From NCBI RefSeq assembly GCF_039522665.1, contig NZ_BAAADV010000003.1, positions 124,001-188,000 on the forward strand: a DNA stretch of 64,000 nt, read 5' to 3'. Each line of letters begins with the position of its first letter. The stretch's first letter is position 1. Positions 23,266-33,023 of the stretch are shown piece by piece. Under the pieces are notes generated by a model, which saw nothing but the letters and a program-made list of their open reading frames with translations, was not told the origin of the DNA and did not search any database. Source of the DNA: Natronoarchaeum mannanilyticum. GTDB taxonomy: Archaea; Halobacteriota; Halobacteria; Halobacteriales; Natronoarchaeaceae. The translations under genes and the position numbers were made by a program.

Positions 23266-23955
23266 TCAATCCGCCTGGACGCCGAGCGCGCGCTGGAGTT
23301 CCGTCGCGCCGGCGCGGGAGGACTCCGGCCCGCGCGCCGTTATCAGGTCACCGTCGACGGTGACGCTCTCCTCGGCGTCGAGTTCAGCGTCCCACTCGGC
23401 GCCGACCGCTTTCACCTCGTCCTCGACGTAGTAGGGGAGCTTCCGGCCGTCGGGCATGTTGTCGTTCTCGTCGACGATGTCCTCCTCCCAGTCGTTGGGG
23501 AAGCCGGTGATCTCCCGGCCGTCGACGAGGATGTCGCCGTCGCTGTCCCGCGTGAAGGCGAGGATGCCGACCGCGTGGCAGACGACCATCGCCTTGCCGT
23601 CGTCGCCCTCGACGGCCTCGCGCAGCAGCGCGCGGGCGTGGTGATCCTGGTTGACGTCCCACTCGGTGCCGTGGCCGCCGGGGAACACGACGGCGTCGTA
23701 GTTGTCCGCCGACGCCTTCGCGATCGGCATCGGGTTCGCCATGCGCTCGTCGTTCCTGTGGACGTCCTTGACGCGCTCGGCGGTCTCCTCGCCGACCGTG
23801 TCGGGGTCGACCGATCGGTCGTCGACGACCGGCTCGCCGCCGCTCGGCGTCGCGACGTCGATGTCGACCCCGGCGTCGGACAGCAGTTCCAGCGGCGTCA
23901 CGCATTCTTCGCCCCAGTACCCCTCCTCGCTGACGACGAACAGAGCGGATGTCAT
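23266..23955 (-). CDS. DJ-1/PfpI superfamily protein, Hsp31-like
   Basis: A 229-residue protein of the class I glutamine-amidotransferase-like fold. The nucleophile elbow is MVVCHAVG with C126 and H127; acidic residue E16 or E17 (GYWGEECV) is placed as in Hsp31-type members. Relatives are glyoxalase III-type deglycases or chaperones. The sequence alone cannot decide between these. Confidence 0.8.
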   Translation of the reverse strand: MTSALFVVSEEGYWGEECVTPLELLSDAGVDIDVATPSGGEPVVDDRSVDPDTVGEETAERVKDVHRNDERMANPMPIAKASADNYDAVVFPGGHGTEWDVNQDHHARALLREAVEGDDGKAMVVCHAVGILAFTRDSDGDILVDGREITGFPNDWEEDIVDENDNMPDGRKLPYYVEDEVKAVGAEWDAELDAEESVTVDGDLITARGPESSRAGATELQRALGVQAD

Positions 23956-24097
23956 CACCGTACGGTACGGCGAGCGATTCAATAAATGGCCGTCACCGCC
24001 CGGTCGCTGGCCGCGGCCGACGCACCCAAAAGGATCGGATCGCGGGACGCCGCGTCGCACGGCAAATTCGGGATACGGCGGCCGCCTGCCGACGCGG

Positions 24098-26623
24098 TCA
24101 CCGGACCCGCAAGGCGACCGCCAGACAGGCGACGCCGACGGCGAGTAACGCGGCGCCGACGAGCAGGAACTGCGCGACGGCCGCGGCGCCGCCGGCGGCG
24201 AGACTCGCGACCCCGGCCGCACCGGCGACGGGCGCGAGAACCCGCCGCCGGGCTTCCTCCGCGGCGATCTCTCGAAGTTCGGCGTCGTCGCGCGGCTCCG
24301 CCCGGTCGTCGGCCGCCGCGGCGAGGTCGCGCACGTTCTCGATCTCGGCGTCGAGCGACGACGTCGCCTCTCGAGCCTCCGACGCCGTCTCCCGGGCTTC
24401 CGACGCGTCGTCCCGCGCGGATTCAGCCGTCGCTTCGACCCCGTCGACGTCCGTTCTGACTGCATCCACGTCTTCCCGCACCGCACCGAGGTCCTCGCGG
24501 ACGGCCGCCAGCGCCTCGGCGTCGGCGGCACCGTCGAGCGCGGACTCGGCGGCGTCGATCCGCCCTTCGAGGTCGTCGACGGTCGTCTCCAGCGCGGCGA
24601 CCGTCTCGTCGAGGTCGCCGAGCGCGTCGATCCGCTCGTCGTGATCGTCGACCCGCTCCGCGAGACCGTCGGTCCGCTCGATCAGCTCGTCGACGCGTCC
24701 CTCGACCGCGTCGAGCCGCGATGCGGCGTCCTCCACCGACTCACGGAGCGCGTCGTCGTTTTCAGCATCGTCGACGTCGTCGGCCAGTTCGTCTACCTCG
24801 TCGGCGACGTCGTCGACGCGCGCGCTAACCGTCGCCAGGTCGCTCCGTAGCTCCGCCACCGCAGCCGCGTCGGCGAGGTCGTCGAGATCGTCCGACAGCG
24901 ACGCCGTCCGGCCTCGGACCGTTTCGACGGTCTCGTCGAGCGTCGCGACCTCGTCCTCGATCGACTCGACGGTCCCGCCGATCGCGTCGACGTCCTCGTC
25001 GATCGTTTCGACGTCGTTCTCGACGTTCTCGACCGACGCTTCCTGTTCGTCGACGCGCTCGCCTAGAGCGTCCAGGCGGTCGGTCGCGGCCGCGAGATCC
25101 TCGGCGAGCTCGTCGCTCGCCGCGTCCTCGCCCCCGATCCGATCGGCCAGGCTCTCGACGTCGGCCGACAGCTCGTCCACGCGGGTCGAGAGGTCGTCGA
25201 GATCGGACTCGACGTCGTCGACGGCTTCCGAGCGCGCCGTGACGTCCGCGAGATCGTCGACGCGCTCGGTCAGCGCGTCGACCCGATCGCCGTCTCTGGC
25301 GGAGACGTCCGTTTCACGAGCGTCGGCGAGCTCGTCCACGCGACCCGAGAGCTCTGCAATTTCGGATTCGAGGTCGTCGACCGCCGCGCGAAGCTCGGTG
25401 TTCACGTCCGCGGCGGCGGACGAATCGGCCGAAACAGACGGCGAGGAACCGGAATCGCCGTCATCGTCCGCCCCGGTCTCGCCGCCTTCACCTCCGGTCG
25501 CGCCGTCGCCGAAGTCCGTGATCGTCGCCTCCGACCTGTCGGCGCCGGCCGGCGCCGCGACGTCGTCGGACGCCGCGGGCTCCTCCGCAGGCAAGGTCGA
25601 CGCCGCAGCCAGCGCCGGCTCGAACGCGGCGTCGTCGAGCGCGCGGTCGGGCGTCGCCGCGTCGGCGTCGCGCTCGGTCGCGGCGACGAGCGCGCCGCGG
25701 GCGGCCGCAGTGCGGGGATCGTCGGCGACCGCGACGTCGCCGAACTCGAACGGCAGATCGATGTCCGCGAGCGCGTCGGCCAGCGCGGGCGCGACGCCGT
25801 CGGGAACTGCAGCGTCGCCGGCGACCGCGACCGGCAGCGGACCGTCGCGATCGATGGCGTCCGCCGGGAGATTCCGGGCGAGCTGCTCGGCGACGTACGA
25901 GAGCAGGTTCTCGTAGTACACCGAGAGCACGCCGCCGACGCCGTCGCTGCTGGGGTGTTCGAGGTCGAACGCGTCGCGCTCGGCCGCGACGTTTTCGATC
26001 GGCCGGTCGGTCGCCTCGGCGACCTGCTCGTCGATCCAGCGCCCGCCGCGGGCGAGGCCGACGCGGGCGACCGGGGCGCCCCGATCGAGCAGGACGGCGT
26101 CGGTGGTGCCCGCGCCGAGCGCGATCGCCAGGCCCGTGTACTCCTCGCCGGCGAGTGCGGCGTAGCCGACCGCGGTCGCCCGGTCGATCGGCGCGGGATC
26201 GTAGCCGAGAGCGGTCAGCCGGTCGTCCAGCGTCCGCCGGTGATAGAGCGCGTCTCCGCCGGCGTCGACGGGATCGGGGGGCACGGCGTAGCCGATCGGC
26301 TCGCCCTCGTCCTCGGGACTGCCCGCCACCTGGGCGACGAGCAGTTCGAGCAGGTCCGCACCAGCCTCCCGATCGCCAGTCAGGATTCCCGAGGGCAGGA
26401 GTTCCTCGGTCGTCGCGTTGAACATGTCCGCGAAGTCCGCGGCGGCGTCGCCGACGGCGAACGCGCTGTCGCCGCGCTCGACGTACTCGGCGTCGGCGCT
26501 CGAAAGCATCTCCAGCACCATCTCGTCGGTCGGGAGTTCCACGTACGCGGCGCGCTCCGCGTCGGTCGCGCCATCGCGCGCCACGACCGCGTGGCGCGCA
26601 TCCACGTCGAGTCCGGTTGCCAT
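24098..26623 (-). CDS. Actin-like ATPase fused to a long coiled coil and C-terminal membrane anchor
   Basis: An 841-residue protein with three parts. Residues 1-320 have an actin/Hsp70-type ATPase pattern: GLDVDARHAVVARDG (phosphate 1), IALGAGTTDAVLLDRG (phosphate 2, 167-182) and VAVAGDAAVPDG (adenosine loop, 265-276). Residues about 330-405 are an Ala/Asp-rich linker. About 410-785 is a continuous heptad-like coiled coil (VDDLESEIAELSGRVDEL and many similar turns). The last 50 residues (RRRVLAPVAG onward) hold one or two membrane helices. Haloarchaeal actin homologues such as volactin and salactin are single-domain proteins of about 340 residues. This looks like a membrane-tethered cytoskeletal or partition protein; that role is inferred. 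Confidence 0.75.
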   Translation of the reverse strand: MATGLDVDARHAVVARDGATDAERAAYVELPTDEMVLEMLSSADAEYVERGDSAFAVGDAAADFADMFNATTEELLPSGILTGDREAGADLLELLVAQVAGSPEDEGEPIGYAVPPDPVDAGGDALYHRRTLDDRLTALGYDPAPIDRATAVGYAALAGEEYTGLAIALGAGTTDAVLLDRGAPVARVGLARGGRWIDEQVAEATDRPIENVAAERDAFDLEHPSSDGVGGVLSVYYENLLSYVAEQLARNLPADAIDRDGPLPVAVAGDAAVPDGVAPALADALADIDLPFEFGDVAVADDPRTAAARGALVAATERDADAATPDRALDDAAFEPALAAASTLPAEEPAASDDVAAPAGADRSEATITDFGDGATGGEGGETGADDDGDSGSSPSVSADSSAAADVNTELRAAVDDLESEIAELSGRVDELADARETDVSARDGDRVDALTERVDDLADVTARSEAVDDVESDLDDLSTRVDELSADVESLADRIGGEDAASDELAEDLAAATDRLDALGERVDEQEASVENVENDVETIDEDVDAIGGTVESIEDEVATLDETVETVRGRTASLSDDLDDLADAAAVAELRSDLATVSARVDDVADEVDELADDVDDAENDDALRESVEDAASRLDAVEGRVDELIERTDGLAERVDDHDERIDALGDLDETVAALETTVDDLEGRIDAAESALDGAADAEALAAVREDLGAVREDVDAVRTDVDGVEATAESARDDASEARETASEAREATSSLDAEIENVRDLAAAADDRAEPRDDAELREIAAEEARRRVLAPVAGAAGVASLAAGGAAAVAQFLLVGAALLAVGVACLAVALRVR

Positions 26624-26678
26624 CTGTTACCGCAGACTACTGTGGCCGGGTGTAATGGTTGTTGTGCCGGTCGCGGGC

Positions 26679-26726
26679 GCGAGCGTCGCTGGGCTCCCGG
26701 AAGCGAACGTCGCTGGGCTCCGGGGG
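26679..26726. repeat. Two tandem 24-bp repeats
   Basis: Units GCGAGCGTCGCTGGGCTCCC.. and GCGAACGTCGCTGGGCTCCG.. differ at a few positions. They lie between the start of the actin-like fusion gene and the end of the lipoprotein gene. Confidence 0.6.
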
Positions 26727-26730
26727 AGAA

Positions 26731-27345
26731 TCAGCCCTCGGGATCGATCCGACGCCGCGCGGTGTCGAACTTCCCTTGCGTGTCGGTGACGCGCAACTCG
26801 ACAGACAATCCCTCCGCACTCTCCTCCTCCAGCCGGTACTCGATCTCGCGGCCGACCCCGTAGGCGTCGCCGATCGACCAGTCGAACGCGGCGATGGCGC
26901 CGTCGACGACGCGCGAGGGGCCGGCGTCGAAGCGAACGACGTCCCCGACCGCAGGGCTCTCGGGGTCGTACGCGAAGCGGGCGAGCGGGCGATCCGTCCG
27001 GGACGCCGCGAGGCGGTACTCGTAGTCGCTCTCCTGATCGGGATAGCGACGCACCGAAACGTCGACCCAGCGCCGCTCGCCGGCGTCGAGGCCGACGACG
27101 TCCGAGTACGTCTCGAACACCTCTCCCTCCGCTTCGCCCGTGGTCCACGCGAGGTCGACGGCCACCTCGACGTGGCCCCCGTCGCCGCCGTTCTCGACGC
27201 GGACGCGCATCGTCGCTTCGCCCTCGACGGCCTCGGTCAGTTCTCTATCGAGAACCTCGACGCCGGTCGACTCGGAGTCCGTACAGCCGGCGATCCCGGC
27301 GGTCGCCGCGGCCGAAGCGGCCGCGAGCAGGGAGCGGCGGCGCAT
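26731..27345 (-). CDS. Tat-exported lipoprotein with PKD-like domain
   Basis: A 204-residue protein. The N-terminus MRRRSLLAAASAAATAGIAGC carries a twin-arginine and lipobox with C21, so it is exported folded and lipid-anchored. The C-terminal half (about 118-200) resembles a PKD fold (VGDVVRFDAG, AAFDWSIGD, VELRVTD). The middle (about 40-110) is another beta domain. Ligand unknown. It is upstream of the actin-like fusion on the same strand, about 107 bp apart. Confidence 0.8.
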   Translation of the reverse strand: MRRRSLLAAASAAATAGIAGCTDSESTGVEVLDRELTEAVEGEATMRVRVENGGDGGHVEVAVDLAWTTGEAEGEVFETYSDVVGLDAGERRWVDVSVRRYPDQESDYEYRLAASRTDRPLARFAYDPESPAVGDVVRFDAGPSRVVDGAIAAFDWSIGDAYGVGREIEYRLEEESAEGLSVELRVTDTQGKFDTARRRIDPEG

Positions 27346-27428
27346 GACGGAGTTACCTTCCTCCCAAGTATCATAAGTGTTCTGTCGAATTCCGGCAGTC
27401 GTGTCCGCTACCGACCGAACGTCGATTC

Positions 27429-28115
27429 TCAGTCTCCGGACGGCTCGGCCTCGACGGCGGTGACGATGCCGAACAGGGCGGTGCGAACGTCTCGAACGTC
27501 GAGTCCGGCCGCCGCCACGTGGTCGAGGGGCTCCTGCGTCAGCCGGCAGCCCATCGACTCGTAGTGGGCGTCGGCCCGCCAGTCCTGGAGCCGGCCGATC
27601 GGTTCGACGTCGCTGCGGCCGTGTTCCAGCAGGAGGATCTGCCCGCTCGGCTTACAAACCCGGTCCATCTCGCGCAGCGCGGCGACCGGGTCGGGGAAGG
27701 TGCAGGTCGACAGCGACGAGATCACGGTATCGAAGCTGTCGGCCTCGAACGCCAGCGCCTGGGCGTCCATCTCGTGCAGTTCGCCGTCCAGGTCGAGTCC
27801 GTCGAGTTGCTGGCGTGCGCCCGCCAGCATCTCCGGACTGACGTCGATCCCGACGAGGTCGACATCCGGCGGGAGGTACGGGAAGTTCACGCCCGTCCCG
27901 CAGGCGACGTCGAGCACGCGGCCCGAGGCCTGCGAGAAGAGCGGCTCGCGGTACCGACCCGTGACCAGGCGATCGAGCCAGTCGAGGCGGGCGAACCAGC
28001 TCGCGCGATCGGCGTAGGTGTCGCGGATCTCGTCGGTCGACATCGGGCGGCCGTCGCCGGGGGCGTCCGGGCTACCGGCGGGGTCGGACGCGTCGGGGGT
28101 CGCTGAATCGCTCAT
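27429..28115 (-). CDS. Class I SAM-dependent methyltransferase
   Basis: A 228-residue methyltransferase. Motif I is VLDVACGTGVNFPYLPP, motif II region VGIDVSPEMLAGARQQL, and post-motif FDTVISSLSTCTF. An acidic/Pro-rich N-terminal tail precedes it. The overall form resembles the UbiE/phospholipid methyltransferase group, but the substrate cannot be told. Confidence 0.8.
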   Translation of the reverse strand: MSDSATPDASDPAGSPDAPGDGRPMSTDEIRDTYADRASWFARLDWLDRLVTGRYREPLFSQASGRVLDVACGTGVNFPYLPPDVDLVGIDVSPEMLAGARQQLDGLDLDGELHEMDAQALAFEADSFDTVISSLSTCTFPDPVAALREMDRVCKPSGQILLLEHGRSDVEPIGRLQDWRADAHYESMGCRLTQEPLDHVAAAGLDVRDVRTALFGIVTAVEAEPSGD

Positions 28116-29785: not shown

Positions 29786-32700
29786 TCAGGTGGGGTGCTG
29801 CTCGACGCGCGCCCGCGGCACCTCCAGAACGACCCGCGTGCCGCCGGAGGGCGCCTCCTCGAAGGAGAGTTCGCCGCCGGACTGGGTGACCACCCAGTTG
29901 ACCAGCCACAGGCCGAGGCCGCTCGCGTGACGCAGCTGGGTGATTTCGCGGTCCTCCGCGAGCAACTCGCGTTCCTCTGCGGGAATGCCGGGTCCGTCGT
30001 CGGTGACGGCGATCCGGACCCGCTCGGCGCGCTCGTCGACCGAGATGTCGACCGACGGGCGGTCGCCGTCGTTGTGGACGATCGCGTTCTCGACGACGTG
30101 GTAGATCGCCGTCCTGAGCATGCTGTCCGCGAGCGCGTCGGCGCGGTCGGGGAGCGAGGTCGTCACGTCGACGTCGTCGAACTCCTCGCCGACGCGGTCG
30201 ACGATCGACTCGACCGCGGCGACGACGTCGACCGATCCCGGCTCGGCGTCGTCGCGGTCGAGCGTCCGCTCGACCGTGCGGGTCTTCTCGGCGAGCGCGA
30301 TCAGTTCGTCCGCGCGCTCCTGGATCGTCGCCGCGTACTCCGAGCCCTCCTCGACCATCGCGTCGAGCATCTCCGCGCAGCCTTTCACGATGTTCATCCC
30401 GTTGCGGAGGTCGTGGCGCAGCACCCGGTTGAGCACCTCGACGCGCTGTCGCTGGCGGTTGCGCTCGGTGACGTCGGTGTAGACGCCGTAGGTCGTCGTA
30501 CCGTCGACGTCGACCGGAACGACCGTCAGCACGAAGTCCCTGAGGCCGGAGGCGGTCTGGCGCTTCACTTCCGTCTCGACGAGTTCGCCGTCCGCGCCGC
30601 GCGCGCCGAGCTCCGCCGCCCGGTCGCGGTTCTCCGGGGGGACGATGTGCTGGTTGATCGGTTCGCCCCGGAGCTGCTCGGCGTCGAAGCCGAACACGCG
30701 CTCGAACGCCGGGTTGACGTCGATGACGGTCGATTGCCCGTCACTCTGGCGGACGCTGGCGACCGGGTCCGGGACGTTCTCGAACAGCGCGGCGAATCGA
30801 TCGCGCTCCTCGCGGAGCTCGCTCTCGAACCGGACCCGCTCGACGGCGTTCGCGACGTGTGAGAGCAGCAGCTCGGCGATCTCGGCGTCTTCCGCGTCGA
30901 ACGACCCGACGTCGTCGGTCGCGACCTGGAACACGCCGGCGTCGCCGACGGGCACCGAGAGCAGCGATCGGATCGCCCCCGCGTCGTCGCCGCGCTCGCG
31001 GCGGTCGTCGATCACCAGCGTCTCGCCGTCGCGGCGCGTCCGGTCGTACGCGCGCCGATCGAGCCGACCGTCCGCGCCGACGGCGCCGTCGATCGGCGAG
31101 CCGTCGGCCACGAACGCGCTCGTCGTCTCGCCGTCGATCGTCCGGATCGTGCAGGCGTCGACGCCGAACACGTCGCGGGCGGCGTCGACGGCCAGATCGA
31201 AGATCGTCCCCACCGAGCGGCTCTCCTCCAGTTGCGTCGCGACGCGGTGGACGCTCTCGATCTTGCGCTTTCGCTCGCGGAGCGCCCGCTCCATTCGCTT
31301 TCGCTCGCTAATGTCTCTGACTGTGCCGACGCTGCCCGTGAACTCCTCGCCCGGCAGCAAGGACATGTTGACCTCACAGGGGATCCGCTCGCCGTCCTCG
31401 GCGACGATCGTCACCTCGTAGGACTCGACGTCGGCCTCGTCGGCGGCGAGCAACCGCTCGAGTCGTCGTTCGCCGCGCTCGATGTCCTCGTCGCGCATGA
31501 TCTTCGAGACGTGCGCTCCCAGCAGCTCGTCCCGGTCGTACCCCGTCATCTCGGCGACGGCGTCGTTGATCTCAGTGTAGTACCCCTGCTCGTCGAGCGC
31601 GTACAGCCCGTCGCCGACGGCGTCGAGCAGCCGCTCGCGGCGTTCGAGTTCGTGCTTGCGCTCGGCTCGTTCGAGCGCCGTCTCCGCGGCGGCGCCGACG
31701 ACCGTCGCCAGATACCTGTCCGTCTCGTCGAAAGCATCGGTGTCGGAGCTGGCAAAGGAAAGCACCCCGTGATCGCCCAGCGGCTGGACGAGCAGGCTCG
31801 CCGCGTCGACGCCCTCGAACTCGCCCGCGTCCTCGTAGACGACCTGCTGGCCGACGTCGAACGCGCGCCAGAGCGGCCCCTCGTCGCGCAACAGCGACTC
31901 GACCGTCCCGGCGTCCCAGCCGTCCGCCGCGCTGGCGACGGGCACGAGCGCGTCGGCGTCCTCGTCGTGGAGCCGGAACGCCGCGAGCGGGTAGTGCAAC
32001 ACGTCCGCCGCGGCGTCCGTGACGATCTCGGCGACGTCCCGCCGGGAGTTCGCGCCGATCAGGTCCCGGGACATCTCCTGGAGCGTCTCCAGGGCGGCGA
32101 CGCGCTGGGTGCGGTCGGTGACGTCGCGAACGAACGACAGCGCGCCGACGACCTCGCCGCTCTCGTCGGTCAGCGGCGTGTTGTGCCACTCGCAGGTGAT
32201 CCGGTCGCCCGACGCCGTGACGTTCTCGTTGACGATGTGAGTGACCCGTCCGTCGCCGATCAGGCCGTCCCAGATATCGCCGACGGCGTCGCGCTCGTCC
32301 TCGGGGACGATCAGGTCCGGACCGGGGCGTCCCATCGCGTTCTCGGCGGTGTAGCCGAACAGCTCCTCCGCCGCGGGGTTCCAGTTGGCGACCGTGAACT
32401 CGGTCGTCCACTCGATGAGAGCCAGCGGCGACTGCTTGATCAGCAGCGAGAGACGGTTGCGCTCGGCGACCGCGGTATCGCTCGCCGCTTCCCTCGCCGA
32501 GTCGTCGAGTACGCCCCGAATGCGATCGACCAGCTCCGCGTCGGCATCGCGCCGCGGGACGTACCCCGCCGCGCCGGCCGCCAGCGCCCGCCCGGCGAGC
32601 GACTCGTCGCCCGTGGCCGGACAGAGCAACACCGGGACGCCCGCACCCTCGAGCCGGTCGAGCAACGACAGGCCGTCGGGCCCCGGCGGGTCGTGGGCCG

Positions 32701-32860
32701 CGACGACGGCGTCGATCCCGTCCGCCTCGACCGCGGCGACGGTATCGTCGGCGTCCGACGCCGTCGCTACCGCGTAGCCCGCTCGCCGGAGCGGGCCCGC
32801 CAGCTGCGATAGCACGTCCTGATCCTCTGCCGCGCAGAGGATCGTGATAGCCTCTGACAT
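29786..32860 (-). CDS. Multi-domain PAS/GAF histidine kinase with degenerate receiver
   Basis: A 1024-residue cytosolic kinase: receiver-like domain (about 1-120), PAS (about 140-265), GAF (about 280-410), PAS (about 420-530), GAF (about 550-690), PAS (about 700-815), then HisKA with RVLRHDLRNGMNIVKG and HATPase_c (VVENAIVHN, DDGPGIP, GLGLWLVNWVV). The receiver lacks the phosphoacceptor: VVAAHDPPGPDG has Ala where Asp is expected, and the conserved Lys is replaced (YVPRRD). It therefore probably signals without phosphorylation at that domain. The start is set at MSEAITIL. Confidence 0.9.
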   Translation of the reverse strand: MSEAITILCAAEDQDVLSQLAGPLRRAGYAVATASDADDTVAAVEADGIDAVVAAHDPPGPDGLSLLDRLEGAGVPVLLCPATGDESLAGRALAAGAAGYVPRRDADAELVDRIRGVLDDSAREAASDTAVAERNRLSLLIKQSPLALIEWTTEFTVANWNPAAEELFGYTAENAMGRPGPDLIVPEDERDAVGDIWDGLIGDGRVTHIVNENVTASGDRITCEWHNTPLTDESGEVVGALSFVRDVTDRTQRVAALETLQEMSRDLIGANSRRDVAEIVTDAAADVLHYPLAAFRLHDEDADALVPVASAADGWDAGTVESLLRDEGPLWRAFDVGQQVVYEDAGEFEGVDAASLLVQPLGDHGVLSFASSDTDAFDETDRYLATVVGAAAETALERAERKHELERRERLLDAVGDGLYALDEQGYYTEINDAVAEMTGYDRDELLGAHVSKIMRDEDIERGERRLERLLAADEADVESYEVTIVAEDGERIPCEVNMSLLPGEEFTGSVGTVRDISERKRMERALRERKRKIESVHRVATQLEESRSVGTIFDLAVDAARDVFGVDACTIRTIDGETTSAFVADGSPIDGAVGADGRLDRRAYDRTRRDGETLVIDDRRERGDDAGAIRSLLSVPVGDAGVFQVATDDVGSFDAEDAEIAELLLSHVANAVERVRFESELREERDRFAALFENVPDPVASVRQSDGQSTVIDVNPAFERVFGFDAEQLRGEPINQHIVPPENRDRAAELGARGADGELVETEVKRQTASGLRDFVLTVVPVDVDGTTTYGVYTDVTERNRQRQRVEVLNRVLRHDLRNGMNIVKGCAEMLDAMVEEGSEYAATIQERADELIALAEKTRTVERTLDRDDAEPGSVDVVAAVESIVDRVGEEFDDVDVTTSLPDRADALADSMLRTAIYHVVENAIVHNDGDRPSVDISVDERAERVRIAVTDDGPGIPAEERELLAEDREITQLRHASGLGLWLVNWVVTQSGGELSFEEAPSGGTRVVLEVPRARVEQHPT

Positions 32861-33023
32861 GAGACGAATCGGCCGGTTCGTCACCACCCACGAACCAGCC
32901 CGACTTTAATCTTGGCAGAATATATAAACGAGGATATAAAAAGAATTCCGGCAGTTCCGGCGACGCGATCCGGGGGTGTCCCGTCGGCGCCACTCGCCAC
33001 GATTCCGCACCGCGTCGTCGGCG

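Follow-up and report, generated by a model that had tools for sequence, protein, structure and literature searches.

Volactin (VolA, HVO_2015, Pfam family PF25216) is a haloarchaeal actin-fold protein with a single domain of about 340-370 residues; it is very conserved and keeps the glutamate Glu152 and the motif TGGTSSP. Salactin (PF25229), also a haloarchaeal actin-fold protein, belongs to a separate Pfam family and clade, and has a disordered N-terminal tail without a coiled coil or a transmembrane (TM) helix. MamK and MreB are active ATPases that likewise have no fused coiled coil or TM hairpin. MreB reaches the membrane via RodZ or by its own membrane contacts. In Haloferax volcanii, volactin forms dynamic filaments that bridge the cytoplasm and contact the membrane by their tips alone, and the accessible part of that report names no anchor (PMC10869688).

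Here, we analysed a window of 64,000 nucleotides from Natronoarchaeum mannanilyticum that contains a gene for an 841-residue protein. Across the full Pfam model this protein belongs to the same family as volactin, but it adds a long coiled coil and a membrane anchor, and it loses the residues mentioned above. By its sequence it is a paralogue of volactin, and the same genome also encodes a normal volactin. The original prediction had described it as an actin-like ATPase with these two additions, and had called volactin and salactin single-domain proteins, which is correct for both; canonical volactins have 340-369 residues. MamK and MreB proved to be the nearest solved folds to its N-terminal domain.

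Domain layout and gene context

The features of the gene, which is on the minus strand (a point that the original prediction had left out), are collected in Table 1. It is a real gene, as indicated by the match to the full PF25216 model, its orthologues, and a dN/dS of about 0.2-0.5 between fused genes of its relatives.

Table 1. Features of the fused volactin gene, in window coordinates
Feature	Position	Strand	Basis
Whole gene, 841 aa: volactin-fold domain, coiled coil and membrane anchor	24098..26623	-	Single ORF translated from 26623 to 24098 with ATG start; Pfam
Actin-fold domain, residues 1-322 (PF25216 Volactin, 1-315)	25658..26623	-	Pfam, predicted structure, MamK/MreB similarity
Phosphate-1 motif, residues 4-11: GLDVDARH vs canonical GLDVGTMN; Asp6 kept, Gly-Thr lost	26591..26614	-	Alignment
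Arg148 at the site of canonical volactin's invariant Glu152 (aligned with MamK E143)	26180..26182	-	Alignment
Phosphate-2 motif region, residues 167-179: IALGAGTTDAVLL vs canonical ISFGAGMTNVCLA	26087..26125	-	Alignment
Adenosine motif region, residues 268-279: AGDAAVPDGVAP vs canonical TGGTSSPDGFEA; second Gly lost	25787..25822	-	Alignment
Acidic disordered linker, residues 323-401	25421..25657	-	AlphaFold pLDDT mostly <45, composition
Coiled coil of 374 residues (402-775); as a single uninterrupted coil it would measure about 55 nm	24299..25420	-	Periodicity, AlphaFold
Hydrophobic C-terminus, residues 795-841, flanked on either side by Arg-rich stretches (EEARRR..., ...RVR)	24101..24241	-	Hydrophobicity, model

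The actin fold predicted for the first 325 or so residues was borne out. The PF25216 match covers the complete model (1-321) with 247.8 bits and an E-value of 2.5e-73, where the Pfam gathering cut-off is 35, and the head shares about 35-38% identity with canonical volactins. With an alignment of 51 relatives, AlphaFold2 predicted residues 1-325 with confidence (pLDDT 91.5, pTM 0.90) as a two-lobed actin fold, which Foldseek matched to MreB and MamK with a probability of 1.00 and an E-value of about 1e-13. MamK was also the best sequence-profile match in the PDB (E 2e-12). The fold comparison that had been proposed thus gave an MreB/MamK-like and not an Hsp70-like result: the TM-score was 0.73 to the MamK filament (5ljv) and about 0.5 to Hsp70 ATPase domains.

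Several other identities were considered and rejected. A DnaK-like scaffold, which the original prediction had kept as an option, does not agree with this low TM-score; no Hsp70 family is among the Pfam matches listed for the window protein, and a coil stands where a substrate-binding domain would be expected. The suggested SMC-like scaffold was abandoned as well, because the matches to SMC, Rad50 and ASRP models reached only 52-64 bits against cut-offs from 300 to more than 700 (for the SMC models, 57 bits against 567) and aligned the coil region alone. Matches to apolipoproteins reflect coiled-coil similarity alone. As for salactin, PF25229 is absent among the 25 Pfam matches listed for the window protein, and salactins branch outside the clade of volactins and fused proteins with a support of 100/100.

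The long coiled coil was confirmed. Over 379 residues, the 3.5-residue hydrophobic periodicity lies 17.5 SD above shuffled sequences, proline is absent throughout residues 402-775, and the full-length AlphaFold model has a near-continuous helix in this region and an unstructured linker before it. Heptad periodicity is found in all 31 fused proteins compared (z 8-29). From species to species the coil region is 165 to 898 residues long; with 0.1485 nm for each residue, this corresponds to about 25-130 nm.

A membrane anchor of one or two TM helices had been expected at the C-terminus, and the anchor was supported: the hydrophobic segments span residues from about 795 to 841, the AlphaFold model has one confident helix (817-840), and the relatives show two hydrophobic segments. 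The region is probably a Gly/Ala-rich TM hairpin. Arginines on both flanks in a very acidic protein favour a hairpin that crosses the membrane twice and has its two ends in the cell. Conservation of the hydrophobic region amounts to a family signature, which in Natrialbaceae is AGGGGAGVVAGG. In 59 and 31 relatives searched for a free-standing hairpin protein, none was found; fused genes alone were matched.

On the minus strand at 23266-28115, genes for a methyltransferase, a PKD-like secreted protein, the fused volactin and a DJ-1/PfpI protein are consecutive and could form one transcript; this set of four was not seen in relatives. Near the fused gene, a large histidine kinase that combines multiple PAS/GAF domains with a response-regulator domain is encoded at 29786-32887 on the minus strand, and an ORF related to this kinase lies inside the 20-kb locus of one relative (L036). 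The orthologues in the window's family (f1) share a neighbourhood with rpl10e and a nucleoside phosphorylase, and many copies in Natrialbaceae are found close to a ribosomal protein L11-L10-P1 cluster. Across the fused-gene neighbourhoods, we found no shared partner gene and no conserved operon with volactin, which lies elsewhere in the genome.

Distribution and phylogeny

PF25216 is matched by two genes of the window genome: the fused gene and, on contig C4, a single-domain volactin. With the single window sequence as a query, no match was obtained in the named genomes, whereas an alignment of Natrialbaceae sequences gave matches; the domain of the long Natrialbaceae proteins was used as the query in the search of 392 genomes. 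The proposed search of haloarchaea found the fused architecture in at least 79 of the 392 sampled genomes of the order, and hence it is not unique to the window; canonical volactin is present in all 79. Family f7, whose named records are Natrinema, Natronorubrum, Haloterrigena, Natrialba, Natronococcus and others, and which is thus Natrialbaceae, accounts for 73 of them. The other six fused genes are from the window's family (G000, G003 and G005), f10 (G032 and G043) and f3 (G010). The matches fell into two clean populations: the 73 fused genes scored at least 291 bits with frames of 649-1564 aa, and the canonical volactins at most 263 bits, most being about 350 aa. Fused ORFs of 575-1313 aa were observed across many genera. 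Long 'volactin' matches in haloarchaeal genomes are therefore mostly not canonical volactin.

Canonical volactin occurs without a fused paralogue in 22 genomes of Natrialbaceae and in G001, from the window's own genus. No fused gene was found in the f5 genomes searched, on which its absence in H. volcanii rests. Outside haloarchaea we found no fused gene, and f19, f21 and f22, from other orders of the phylum, have single-domain volactin-family genes.

In a tree with salactin as the outgroup, the fused actin domains split into a clade of f1, f10 and f3 and a clade of f7, although a single clade of all fused genes was not rejected (AU test, p 0.57). Canonical volactins are extremely conserved, whereas the fused ones evolve much faster.

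Some unusual copies of canonical length or less were also observed. In G021, L040 (C1:1837300-1837539) is a canonical volactin remnant that covers only model positions 238-321, in a 153-aa frame with unrelated upstream residues. The genome is otherwise nearly complete, and its volactin gene is probably broken. Single-domain-length volactin-family genes of about 343 aa, annotated as hypothetical proteins, are carried on plasmid pHMA411 of Haloarcula marismortui (L133, 237915-238943) and on a 987-kb plasmid of Natrinema thermotolerans (L134), even though in H. volcanii volactin appears essential. In a non-haloarchaeal genome of the same phylum (G493, contig C75:129-701), a volactin-family gene is in pieces with internal stops.

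Degenerate nucleotide site and selection

We compared the nucleotide-site motifs of 27 canonical volactins and 31 fused proteins. In the canonical proteins, GLDVGTMN, PINEG, GISFGAGMTNV and VTGGTSSP are practically invariant. All 27 canonical volactins have the glutamate of PINEG, Glu152, and none of the 31 fused proteins does; the latter have Arg (11), Lys (11), Thr (6), Pro (2) or Ala (1) at this site. The second Gly of the adenosine motif TGGT is also lost in all 31, and the phosphate-1 Asp is kept in 30 of the 30 where it is aligned. The three motifs described in the original prediction are present in order, but in degenerate form and without the catalytic glutamate. Compared with the volactin family, which is single-domain and conserves GLDVGT, NEG and GGTSSP, the window protein has 841 residues with a coil and an anchor, and carries DVDAR for DVGTM, Arg148 for Glu152 and AGDAAVP for TGGTSSP (adenosine motif AGDAAVPDG in full).

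In a profile alignment, Glu152 of volactin aligns with E143 of MamK, and mutation of this conserved residue or of D161 abolishes the ATPase activity of MamK (PMC5059902). Because of this equivalence and the loss of the adenosine Gly-Gly, the alignment strongly suggests that the fused proteins have lost ATP hydrolysis; the claim extends to hydrolysis and not to nucleotide binding. The view of the protein as an ATPase, presumably forming filaments on its own, accordingly finds no support in the 31 sequences. At the position of the phosphate-2 Asp of MamK (D161), the 27 canonical volactins have a Ser.

The fused gene family is under purifying selection. In close pairs of relatives' fused genes, the actin domain had a dN/dS of 0.2-0.3 and the linker plus coil one of 0.28-0.5; the membrane segment, at 50 residues, is too short for a reliable estimate. 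Of 16 coil indels in the four closest pairs, 8 had a length divisible by seven (expected 2.3, p 0.0008); across all pairs compared, some of which share branches, the figure was 15 of 40. Such a preference is what selection for the heptad register would give.

Possible function and comparison with known systems

We propose, with a probability of about 0.5, that the fused protein is a volactin paralogue, deficient in hydrolysis and tethered to the membrane, which attaches to filaments of canonical volactin and links them to that membrane. The TM hairpin would anchor it in the cytoplasmic membrane so that the coiled coil and the actin head lie on the cytoplasmic side, and the coil would make it a dimer or higher oligomer. 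The head would contact canonical volactin as actins contact each other, in the simplest case at the filament end, and a docked protein that does not hydrolyse ATP would not turn over. The fused protein would then serve volactin filaments as a membrane anchor, cap or nucleation site on a long arm, whose length would differ between species from about 25 to 130 nm. This proposal is supported by the constant presence of canonical volactin beside the fused gene in all 79 genomes; by the loss of Glu152 and of the second Gly (each 31/31) with retention of the phosphate-1 Asp (30/30); by the heptad periodicity, the heptad-multiple indels and the dN/dS of 0.2-0.5; and by volactin filament tips that lie at the membrane with no anchor named in the accessible text (PMC10869688).

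The strongest objection is that the tips bind the membrane in H. volcanii and no f5 genome searched has the fused gene, which makes the fused protein a lineage-specific addition and not a general anchor. The absence of a conserved operon with volactin, the two genes being apart, and the 22 Natrialbaceae genomes and G001 with volactin alone also count against the proposed tether, and shared descent weakens it, since co-occurrence with volactin is then partly expected. Sequence blocks showed that the two fused clades retain different parts of the volactin surface, and no common contact face was located, which is a further argument against it. Finally, from the Ser at the D161 position, even canonical volactin may hydrolyse ATP differently; its chemistry may not follow MamK, and this too speaks against a hydrolysis-deficient tether.

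The fast-evolving head, its clade-specific surface and the lack of an operon link to volactin would suit a scaffold or mechanosensor unrelated to volactin filaments, in which the head binds another cytoplasmic partner and the coil and TM hairpin position this partner at the membrane, for example as a chemoreceptor-like or RodZ-like adaptor or in positioning the envelope or archaellum. Pseudo-actin domains of the GspL and FtsA/PilM type offer a precedent, as they bind non-actin partners at the membrane. The strict co-occurrence with canonical volactin, though partly expected from shared descent, argues the other way, and we consider such a scaffold rather unlikely. The same co-occurrence, the fused gene never being found without canonical volactin, makes it doubtful that the protein has kept nucleotide binding and, as an actin bound to the membrane, polymerises by itself into short MreB-like membrane filaments, independently of volactin and with the coil as a spacer. 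The complete and confidently predicted fold, the retained phosphate-1 Asp and the polymerisation of its nearest folds, MreB and MamK, favour self-polymerisation, but the catalytic Glu and adenosine Gly-Gly are lost in 31/31 and the phosphate-1 and phosphate-2 motifs are changed. A278D, which blocks polymerisation of MamK, maps to the loop that follows the long helix; this loop is close to canonical volactin in f7 but eroded in the window's own clade. Degenerate motifs, fast evolution and a patchy distribution could also mark a decaying volactin duplicate without a selected function; this is very improbable in view of the dN/dS of 0.2-0.5 in head and coil, the open frames of 575-1313 aa in many genera, the heptad-preserving indels and the conserved hairpin.

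The family is a concrete candidate for a filament-membrane link in haloarchaea other than Haloferax, and if the fused protein does act as a tether, a pseudo-actin would have evolved as an accessory of its own polymer. We suggest only tentatively the more specific idea of a dedicated pseudo-actin family that caps or nucleates the ends of an archaeal actin filament and serves as the tip anchor of that filament. In the openly available part of the literature, preprints excepted, we found no description of a volactin-derived pseudo-actin with a long coil and a membrane hairpin.

Eukaryotic Arp-type end proteins follow a logic comparable to that of such a tip anchor, which differs from them in its fused tether and membrane anchor. 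GspL, FtsA and PilM-type proteins use the actin fold as a membrane adaptor and not as a free filament former, and GspL is also fused to a TM helix; they are bacterial and belong to other families. GspL has a periplasmic domain and no coil of 55-130 nm, and FtsA has an amphipathic helix and serves FtsZ. Adaptors with an actin fold that attach to the membrane are known, as are volactin and MreB/MamK; what appears to be new, in the literature covered, is the combination of a volactin-derived pseudo-actin, a long coil and a membrane hairpin in one protein.
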